Assembly (NCBI RefSeq): GCF_000012305.1
Contig: NC_007204.1
Location: forward strand, 1,860,001-1,924,000
Direction: 5' to 3'
Source of the DNA: Psychrobacter arcticus 273-4
GTDB lineage: Bacteria; Pseudomonadota; Gammaproteobacteria; Pseudomonadales; Moraxellaceae
DNA length: 64,000 nucleotides
Position numbers and translations under genes: made by a program. The notes under the pieces were generated by a model. The model was not told the DNA's origin, did not search any database, and was given only the letters and a program-made list of their open reading frames with translations. Shown one piece after another: positions 23,660 to 62,897 of this stretch (position 1 is the stretch's first letter; each line of letters begins with the position of its first letter).

Positions 23660-23797
23660 TATAGTTGAAATGCTTTAAAGTCGCTACAGTACTACTGGTG
23701 TAAATTTTTTGCAGCCTCTGTCTGCGTAGGCACAGCAAGCAAGAAAAATTTGCACCAGTAGTACGTGTTGTATCGATATTACTTTTCACCGACTATA
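23660..23797 (-). repeat. 138-bp palindromic element, copy 4
   Basis: Full-length, reverse orientation, between the tRNA-Leu terminator and the 3' end of the protein kinase gene. Its TATAG end supplies the kinase TAG stop codon (23793-23795). Both inner arms carry the GTACTACTGG variant. Confidence 0.95.
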
Positions 23798-24785
23798 GCG
23801 TCTCTAAATCGCTCAACACCTCCTCCATGTTTTGATAGCGCTTGTCCATCCTCTTTGCCAGTGCTTTATCGGCAATACATTGATAATGACGATACTCTAA
23901 GGGCAAGATGGGTATCGGATGCTGGCAGTGCTGGGTCGCCCACTCTCTCAACCACTCATCATTTTTTGAGTCTAAATTAAACGGTCGCTCACCGACTAAT
24001 ATTTCATACATCATAATTCCAAATGCGTATATGTCGCTTTGTACCGTTGCACGCTGACCTTGCCAACGCTCAGGGGCAAGGTAGGCAGGCGTGCCAGCAC
24101 TACTTGCTGAACTTGGCTTATGAAGAGCTCTCGCCAAGGCAAAATCAGTCAATAAAAAATCAAACGTGATACGGCTATTATCCGCATTATTTGTTAGGAA
24201 ACCTTCTAGCAAAATATTACTGGGCTTAATATCATTATGTAGCCAGCCTACTTGATGTAAGTGATAGATAAGATAAGCAGATTGCACGATAAATTGATGT
24301 TTTTGCGTCTCTGTTAATAATAAATGCTTTTGAGCGCTCAGCTGATTTGCCAAGCTGCCATTAGGATAATAAGGCATGACAAGCACCGTCAGCTGCTGCC
24401 GCCCTAATATTTGCAAAGTGATATTTTCATAGGCTAATAGTGGTGGCGCTATAGCGGTAAAACTATTTTGATTTTTCGATAAACTATTTATAGATGTTAG
24501 AACATTAGCTTCATAAGTTAAATCAGCAGAATTTTGATTATTATCAGCACATAACTGCCATTTAATCATCACCTGACCAAACTGTAGATGTTGTGCGCGT
24601 GTTAAGCCTTGATAGTCAAGCTCGCTACCATTACTTTGCTGACTGAGGCGTTGAGGCGATATCTCGCTATAATTTAGGTTAGAAAAGAATATAGTCAATG
24701 CTGGCAGGATTTGTTGCGCTTGTGTTCGCAACGCTTGTTTTGCACCTGCTTGTATTGTAGACGGAATACTGGCACTATTTTTCAT
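23793..24785 (-). CDS. Hanks-type Ser/Thr protein kinase
   Basis: A soluble 330-residue protein consisting of a kinase domain after an N-terminal region of about 60 residues. Visible landmarks are the ATP lysine in QVMIKW (K75), the helix-C glutamate in YEANVL (E92), the catalytic loop HNDIKPSNILL (D185, N190), the magnesium loop DFA (214-216) instead of DFG, and GTPAYLAPERW. No transmembrane or sensor domain follows, unlike PknB/Stk kinases. All catalytic residues are present, so it is probably active; its target is unknown. The last codon lies next to, and the stop within, palindromic repeat copy 4. It diverges from the DUF815 gene across 61 bases. Confidence 0.88.
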   Translation of the reverse strand: MKNSASIPSTIQAGAKQALRTQAQQILPALTIFFSNLNYSEISPQRLSQQSNGSELDYQGLTRAQHLQFGQVMIKWQLCADNNQNSADLTYEANVLTSINSLSKNQNSFTAIAPPLLAYENITLQILGRQQLTVLVMPYYPNGSLANQLSAQKHLLLTETQKHQFIVQSAYLIYHLHQVGWLHNDIKPSNILLEGFLTNNADNSRITFDFLLTDFALARALHKPSSASSAGTPAYLAPERWQGQRATVQSDIYAFGIMMYEILVGERPFNLDSKNDEWLREWATQHCQHPIPILPLEYRHYQCIADKALAKRMDKRYQNMEEVLSDLETL

Positions 24786-31646: not shown

Positions 31647-31784
31647 TATAGTTGAAATACTTTAAAGTCGCTACCGTATTGCTGGTGTAAATTTTTTGCA
31701 GCCTCTGTCTGCGTAGGCACAGCAAGCAAGAAAAATTTACACCAGTAGTACGTGTTGTATCGATATTACTTTTCACCGACTATA
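31647..31784 (-). repeat. 138-bp palindromic element, copy 6
   Basis: Full-length, reverse orientation, between the convergent cmoM and fbpC genes. Its right end overlaps the last codons and the TGA stop of fbpC. Confidence 0.95.
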
Positions 31785-33143
31785 TCTTATTTCTTCAATT
31801 CTCTCTGATCTATCATATTCTGACCAAGTCGTAGTATTGATATCTTTTTCATCAAATACCACGACATGCTCTAGTATCGGTAAGATGCCAATTTGCGTGC
31901 CGATGTCATGATTATGATGACTGGCGACTAAGGACAACACGGTTTGACCATCATCCAGTTGCAAGCGATAGAGATAGTTGGCACCGCGAAACACCCGACC
32001 AACCACTAATGCAGTCTGCGTACTTTCATCATCATGGACAATATCATCGGGACGTACCAATACTTTAATCGGCGTACCATTTGGATAATCGTACTCACAA
32101 TACTGCGGCTGACCTGACGCATCATAGACTTCCATCCGTCGATAAATATCACCAAGTGCCGTCTCGACATGACCTTCTTTGATGATGCCATCTATCATCG
32201 CGCCTTCGCCGACGAACTCAGCGACAAACGGGCTGACCGGCTCATGATATAGCTCACTTGGGGTTGCCCACTGTACCAGCTTACCCTGATGCATAACTCC
32301 GACTTTATCAGCAAGCGCAAACGCTTCATTTTGATCGTGAGTGACCAAAATAGCAGTGGTATTGGTGCGCTTAAGAATATCGCGAACATTCATCGCCAGT
32401 GATTCACGCAACACCACATCCAAGTTCGAAAACGGCTCGTCGAGCAGCAACAGCTTAGGCTTTGGCGCTAATGCACGAGCCAACGCCACCCGTTGTTGTT
32501 GTCCGCCTGATAGCTCGCTTGGGCGCTTATCGGCATGTTCAGACAATGCCACCAGCGCGAGCATCTCAGCAACGCGGGCTTTTTTGTCGGCAGCAGACCA
32601 TTTATTGAGACCAAAGGCGATATTTTTTGCCACGCTTAAATGACCGAACAGCGCATAGTCTTGAAACACCATGCCCATCCCACGTTTGGCTGGCGCAACG
32701 GCAAATGAGACACGTGCTGCTTGCTCTGTCAGCCGCTGAGTGTTTAGAGTGATTTTACCGCCGCGACTCTCTTCTAATCCCGCAATCGCTCTTAATGCCG
32801 TGGTCTTGCCGCAGCCGCTATAACCCAAAAAGCAGCCAATTTCACCTTGCTGCAAGTTTAGCGATAAACCATTGACCACTATGGTATCGTCATAGCCAAC
32901 CACCAAGTCTTGTACACTAAAATACGGCTGAGTGGCGGCGGTCTCATGATGTTGAACGAAGGAGCTATCTAAACTAGCAGTGCTGTGTTGTAACTCCTTC
33001 TCCGCTAAAGCTTGCGCCATTTGTGCCTTAGTTATGATGGTAATAGGTGGCTTTTTCACATTACTTAGTCGTGCTTTGCTCTGAGGCTCTACAGACTCAG
33101 AGTCTGCTGGATTTATTGAATCGTTCATCAAGTCAGTATACAT
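31773..33143 (-). CDS. fbpC: Iron(III) ABC transporter ATPase
   Basis: ATPase of a ferric-iron uptake system, identified by the adjacent permease and binding protein. The 456 residues begin with a polar extension of about 70 residues with no recognised domain, then an ABC domain (Walker A GYSGCGKTT, signature LSGGQQQRVALARAL, Walker B LLLDEP, H loop LVTHD) and a C-terminal TOBE-like regulatory domain. The last three residues and the TGA stop come from repeat copy 6. Another copy lies 17 bases upstream of the start, separating it from fbpB. No clear Shine-Dalgarno sequence is seen before either ATG (33143 or 33128). Confidence 0.87.
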   Translation of the reverse strand: MYTDLMNDSINPADSESVEPQSKARLSNVKKPPITIITKAQMAQALAEKELQHSTASLDSSFVQHHETAATQPYFSVQDLVVGYDDTIVVNGLSLNLQQGEIGCFLGYSGCGKTTALRAIAGLEESRGGKITLNTQRLTEQAARVSFAVAPAKRGMGMVFQDYALFGHLSVAKNIAFGLNKWSAADKKARVAEMLALVALSEHADKRPSELSGGQQQRVALARALAPKPKLLLLDEPFSNLDVVLRESLAMNVRDILKRTNTTAILVTHDQNEAFALADKVGVMHQGKLVQWATPSELYHEPVSPFVAEFVGEGAMIDGIIKEGHVETALGDIYRRMEVYDASGQPQYCEYDYPNGTPIKVLVRPDDIVHDDESTQTALVVGRVFRGANYLYRLQLDDGQTVLSLVASHHNHDIGTQIGILPILEHVVVFDEKDINTTTWSEYDRSERIEEIRYSR

Positions 33144-61040: not shown

Positions 61041-61043
61041 AAT

Positions 61044-61112
61044 TATAGTCGGTGAAAAATCATATCGATACAACACGTACTACTGGTGCGACTTTAAAGT
61101 ATTTCAACTATA
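61044..61112 (+). repeat. Deleted palindromic element, copy 10 (69 bp)
   Basis: Reference orientation with both TATAG/CTATA ends intact but the central 69 bases missing: ..GTACTACTGGTGC joins directly to GACTTTAAAG... The junction shares GC with both sides of the deleted segment. It lies between trpS and scpA. Confidence 0.93.
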
Positions 61113-62066: not shown

Positions 62067-62618
62067 ATGGCAGCTACAGACGATACTAAAGAAGACCTAC
62101 TGTCTATTAAAGACATCAGCAAACAGATCGAAGTTTTACTGCATGCTTCAGAAGTGCCCTTGACTGCTAATCACTTAAAAAAACACCTCTCCTTGACGAC
62201 TAAGACCTTAGAGCAGGCTCTAGCACTGCTAAAGCAACGTTTGGATCTTGGCGTATTAAATTTACATCATACTGCCAGTGGTTATCGCTTGCAAATCGCT
62301 GATAGCCATAGTGCCTTAATCCAAAGCGTCTTTCCACAACGTCAAGAACGTCTAAGCCAAGCGTTACTTGAGACACTGAGTGTGATTGCTTATAAGCAAC
62401 CGGTGACGCGCAGCGACATAGAACATGTGCGCGGTGTGACGCTATCGAGCACTATATTACGCCAACTATTTGATAAAGGTTGGATTGAAGAGAACGGTCA
62501 TAAAGATACTTTAGGGCGTCCGGCATTGCTGCACACCACACCGAAATTTTTAGATGCCTTTGGACTGAGCCATTTGGATGAGCTGCCGCCCATGCCAGAT
62601 ATAGTTGAAATACTTTAA
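62067..62618 (+). CDS. scpB: Segregation and condensation protein B
   Basis: Dimeric winged-helix partner of ScpA. The 183-residue protein contains ISKQIEVLLHASEVPLTANHL, the conserved ETLSVIAYKQPVTRSDIEHVRG segment and GRPALLHTTPKFLDAFGL. The final five codons (IVEIL) and the TAA stop lie inside repeat copy 11. The protein therefore ends with a repeat-encoded peptide, and the family's variable C-terminal tail is short here. Confidence 0.94.
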   Translation: MAATDDTKEDLLSIKDISKQIEVLLHASEVPLTANHLKKHLSLTTKTLEQALALLKQRLDLGVLNLHHTASGYRLQIADSHSALIQSVFPQRQERLSQALLETLSVIAYKQPVTRSDIEHVRGVTLSSTILRQLFDKGWIEENGHKDTLGRPALLHTTPKFLDAFGLSHLDELPPMPDIVEIL

Positions 62619-62737
62619 AGTCGCTACAGTACTACTGGTGTAAATTTTTTGCAGCCTCTGTCTGCGTAGGCACAGCAAGCAAGAAAAATTTGCACCAGTA
62701 GTACGTGTTGTATCGATATTACTTTTCACCGACTATA
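62600..62737 (-). repeat. 138-bp palindromic element, copy 11
   Basis: Full-length, reverse orientation. Its left 19 bases are translated as the end of ScpB. Both arms carry the GTACTACTGG variant. It lies between the convergent scpB and lolA genes, just before their shared terminator. Confidence 0.95.
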
Positions 62738-62799
62738 TAGACAGCATCAGAGCATCCTCTTAAATAAATTAAAATTAGACCGATAAAATATTCTTACTC

Positions 62800-62840
62800 A
62801 ATAAAAAAGGACACACCATTTAGGTATGTCCTTTTTTATT
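62800..62840. terminator. Bidirectional terminator between scpB and lolA
   Basis: AATAAAAAAGGACA pairs with TGTCCTTTTTTATT around a 13-base loop; A and T runs on either side suit both converging units. Confidence 0.88.
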
Positions 62841-62897
62841 GTTCTAGTAAGTCAGCTTAATCAATAAATTTCTTGATCAGCTTTTGATAATTGGCTC

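Follow-up and report, generated by a model that had tools for sequence, protein, structure and literature searches.

The scpB locus and its repeat

The gene scpB occupies positions 62067–62618 of the forward strand in the window, a 64,000-nucleotide stretch of the Psychrobacter arcticus 273-4 chromosome, and encodes a protein of 183 amino acids. This protein belongs to the ScpB domain family, matching the Pfam model SMC_ScpB over residues 20–175 (E = 7.7e-47) and TIGR00281 over residues 18–178. It ends ...PPMPDIVEIL, the last codons being GAT (62598–62600), ATA, GTT, GAA, ATA, CTT and TAA (62616–62618). A repeat starts at 62600 and the scpB frame terminates within it, as a sequence-only reading of this DNA had stated; the codons can be read directly and the repeat is genuine. 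Including both copies of TA, this MITE-like copy covers 62600–62737 on the forward strand (element proper, 62602–62735), with boundaries taken from alignment with empty sites in relatives, and it extends another 119 bases beyond the scpB TAA. Further downstream, an inverted repeat, AAAAAAGGACACACC...GGTATGTCCTTTTTT (62805–62842), which was read in the sequence and is conserved in the two closest relatives (genomes G043 and G058), is probably the scpB terminator, now situated about 190 bp past the stop codon; a scan for consensus terminators did not flag it. A shortened derivative of this repeat, with both ends kept and the middle absent, is found at 61041–61112 between trpS and scpA, starting a few bases past the trpS stop.

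The repeat is about 138 bp long with its TA copies. The first 25 bases of its left end have 321 matches at three or fewer mismatches in the 2.65 Mb of the P. arcticus genome, a single contig of 2,650,701 bp, against none for the reversed-pattern control. Its traits are those of a MITE: it is short, has terminal inverted repeats (the majority of 176 copies end in TATAGTTGAAATAC and TATAGTCGGTGAAAA), occurs in many dispersed copies, and shows a TA target-site duplication at scpB, the same pattern being read at xseA and at an ABC ATPase gene. The outer bases of the element pair in the predicted fold, which for its RNA is a long hairpin of -50.2 kcal/mol (z -6.1). At either end every reading frame meets a stop within 18 bases, so that only six kinds of tail occur: IVEIL-TAA, YS-TGA or TAG from the left end, and IVGEK-TAA, a YSR-type-TGA or TAG from the right end.

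Related copies are present in 14 of the 15 Psychrobacter genomes searched. Copies are about 94–100% alike within the P. arcticus genome and at most 88% identical to copies of relatives (G043, G058 and G025 compared), which suggests that in each species the copies arose in a burst of their own or were homogenised. The ends have no match at 12 loci of DDE_3 (IS630-type), the sole transposase family tried as a partner. The repeat has no Rfam match above the gathering score, and none in the plasmids or viral contigs searched. MITEAba12 of Acinetobacter, which has 9-bp duplications and other ends, was rejected as a match.

Empty sites and the ancestral ScpB tail

The site was compared with those of the two closest ScpB relatives, in Psychrobacter glacincola (genome G043, locus L010) and in genome G058 (locus L011). 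In the alignment neither has the repeat; their proteins end ...PPMPD-I-DSIRASS and ...PPMPE-I-DSIRASS, respectively, followed by TAA. Homology with both resumes on either side of the P. arcticus element, and behind it, at 62740–62763 of the forward strand, lies GACAGCATCAGAGCATCCTCTTAA, which matches the ends of the L010 and L011 reading frames in the alignment and holds the complete ancestral tail D-S-I-R-A-S-S-stop, now untranslated. The empty site in two close relatives and the intact displaced tail behind the element show that insertion of the repeat replaced the original scpB end, just as the sequence-only reading had proposed. The alignment makes visible the insertion itself, the doubled TA and the altered reading frame: TA copies stand at 62600–62601 and 62736–62737, which fits a TA target duplicated upon insertion, the first T of this ancestral target being a presumed base for which G043 and G058 have C or G. 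The repeat had been credited with the last five codons and the stop. It does supply the stop together with V, E, I and L (62604–62618, from the sequence and the empty-site alignment), but the preceding Ile 179 is ancestral, being the same in the filled state and in the two empty-site relatives, and the TA of the target together with the TA end of the element rebuilds its codon, so that four new residues (VEIL) replace seven (DSIRASS).

Tails were read at 70 Psychrobacter ScpB loci, that of the window included, and the window's protein was aligned with 68 others. VEIL is absent from all 68, and thus the observation that the sequence-only reading had named as contrary to its claim, a relative ending in IVEIL in the absence of the repeat, was not found. 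An IVEIL end that is ancestral to ScpB and resembles the repeat by coincidence is refuted by the same absence, by the empty sites and by the run of repeat past the stop. The tail itself had been called variable, which is only partly right, for across the genus Psychrobacter it shows moderate conservation, with the rough pattern D-x-x-A-I-[KR]-A-[ML]-S. Its best-conserved position is 182, an Ile in 87% of relatives; by coincidence VEIL again places an Ile there.

A related repeat (113 bits) lies in the opposite orientation at the scpB stop of another species (G002, locus L185, positions about 540–700), where the protein ends ...PDMNAI-TAG. This insertion is an event independent of that in the window. 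It may have left the protein unchanged, the ancestral stop possibly being already at the insertion point, because the sequence to the right of the repeat would continue the same Ile with TGA. In a further genome (G059, locus L188), scpB is interrupted by TAG after ...TTPQF and the remainder is in another frame, owing to a frameshift, pseudogene formation or a sequencing error.

Genes ended by other copies

The survey covered 206 near-full-length copies in stretches around listed matches, an incomplete census of the roughly 310–320 in the genome and one weighted towards its first 1.7 Mb. In 12 of them the stop codon of an ORF of 100 or more amino acids lies no further than 19 bp from one end of the copy. 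One of the 12 ORFs (1079364–1079696), which also ends IVEIL, is spurious, its frame differing from that of the conserved gene at the same place, and was discounted; 11 recognisable genes remain, ScpB included. A thirteenth ORF (242307–242621), which stops 106 bp inside a copy, was discounted. The lengths by which ORFs overlap copies fall at the values set by the three frames of each element end.

Besides the scpB copy, two of these copies lie in the window on the forward strand, both at ORFs of the minus strand. The copy at 23660–23797 supplies the TAG stop of a protein kinase ORF (23793–24785), which ends DLETL with its length kept. The copy at 31647–31785, inserted in a TAG stop, adds YSR-TGA to an FbpC-type ABC ATPase (31773–33143), so that EEIR-stop of the empty-site relative becomes EEIRYSR-stop. 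Comparison with empty-site relatives elsewhere gives HNK-stop to HIVEIL-stop in a thioesterase, LGNS-stop to LGNIVAIL-stop in Mpl, DSLL-stop to DSLLYS-stop in a Sua5-type protein, and AST-stop to STYS-stop in XseA, where the insertion is in TAA. Relative to the proteins of relatives, ...ATKF becomes ...TNIVGEK in a DUF6122 protein and ALIL becomes AIVIFIYS in a CobW-like GTPase, while in an M16 peptidase (G000:C1:1117115-1117262) the element end truncates a basic C-terminal tail. At NrdB (G000:C1:1526543-1526680) the end DFDDFEL is unchanged and the element supplies the stop; this exact DDFEL end suggests selection against altering the C-terminus.

The ORF ends that reach less than 30 bp into a copy, or stand no more than 10 bp away from one, are 3' ends in 38 cases and 5' ends in 3, a count from which 14 further 5' ends, located more than 30 bp inside a copy, fall outside. 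Such gathering at gene 3' ends might be taken further, to a MITE family adapted to these positions, whose two ends would serve as stop cassettes in all three frames and would repeatedly give core proteins minimal new tails (ScpB, Mpl and XseA among them, with NrdB unaltered), host tolerance having shaped the ends of the element. We regard this extension as unlikely.

Origin and meaning of the VEIL tail

The explanation that we favour, at a probability of about 0.9, is that the VEIL tail is a tolerated, near-neutral replacement of the ScpB C-terminus by a MITE-like element inserted at TA. The high-copy element inserted at a TA spanning scpB codons 178–179 and duplicated it. In the scpB frame its left end reads ATA GTT GAA ATA CTT TAA, and because this frame stops translation a few codons into the element, the translated protein is predicted to end VEIL, not DSIRASS. 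The insertion would be tolerated because the lost segment lies beyond the folded domain of ScpB, which ends at residue 175–178, and perhaps also through the hydrophobic residue kept at 179 and the Ile at 182. The data favour transposition of a non-autonomous element at TA, and the insertions that survive would be those touching only a dispensable end; since both ends have stops in all frames, each insertion into a gene adds at most about five residues, and surviving copies gather at the 3' ends of genes. Tolerance and near-neutrality are what we infer for scpB, and against replacement at no cost stands the moderate conservation of the tail in the genus, as losing the last residues may not be free.

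The sequence-only reading had regarded the repeat as exapted into a core protein. True exaptation would mean that the VEIL tail was selected for improved or changed function or stability of ScpB, and the conserved Ile kept at 182 could be counted in its favour, as could the fact that ScpB with VEIL presumably still works in the Smc-ScpAB complex. Nevertheless it is very improbable, and the term is not supported. The copy corresponds to the family consensus, and nothing in it is tuned to scpB, because several other copies of the genome match it base for base over 140 bp; the VEIL-ended protein occurs in one species of the sample; the segment is outside the domain; and the same tails are found on unrelated proteins, the thioesterase having acquired the same peptide simply from the reading frame. 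The insertion looks like a tolerated accident of a familiar type, not like the start of a new function.

The main effect might instead be on RNA, a hairpin in the 3' UTR altering the stability of scpB mRNA, for example as an RNase III substrate. The strong hairpin of the element now stands between the scpB stop and the probable terminator, and the NEMIS repeats of Neisseria are reported to be RNase III substrates (a title cited in PMC2229807), although any insertion of this repeat family would do likewise. This reading is compatible with tolerated replacement, and we hold it to be unlikely as the main effect.

The scpB insertion is a clean, recent-looking case in which a mobile repeat has given a core protein of chromosome segregation a new end while the empty sites and the displaced tail remain. 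Together with some ten parallel cases in the P. arcticus genome and another insertion at scpB in a different species, it turns the repeat family into a natural experiment that shows which proteins accept a new C-terminus (ScpB, XseA, Mpl) and which retain the exact old one (DDFEL of NrdB).

The scpB case is a fresh example of a known phenomenon, with a repeat undescribed in the literature searched, where no paper on it in Psychrobacter was found. The Correia/NEMIS repeats have a TATAGT start similar to that of the Psychrobacter repeat. As described, they are also alike in size, in TA ends and target duplication and in the long hairpin, whereas their 155-bp form, which has stops in all frames, is reported almost exclusively from intergenic sites in Neisseria (PMC2229807). 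RU-1/ERIC, RU-2 and RU-3 of enterobacteria are likewise small, with TA ends and TA duplications, and are fused to gene 3' ends, as in an amidase that has lost its normal stop; however, their open frames are longer and can extend a protein by tens of residues (PMC2759123), while the ends of the Psychrobacter repeat are closed within 18 bases. QMITE1 and QMITE2 of Coxiella burnetii provide ubiB, recN, ogt, mutT, pntAA and others with their stop codon, in some cases preceded by a few final residues (PMC5896051, table 2); they are located at gene 3' ends, and genes of known function have none at the 5' end (PMC5896051). They too are short non-autonomous repeats supplying the ends of functional genes, but they differ in sequence and sizes and have direct repeats of lengths other than TA (PMC5896051). 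In the Psychrobacter case, the ancestral tail is seen directly in empty-site orthologues.
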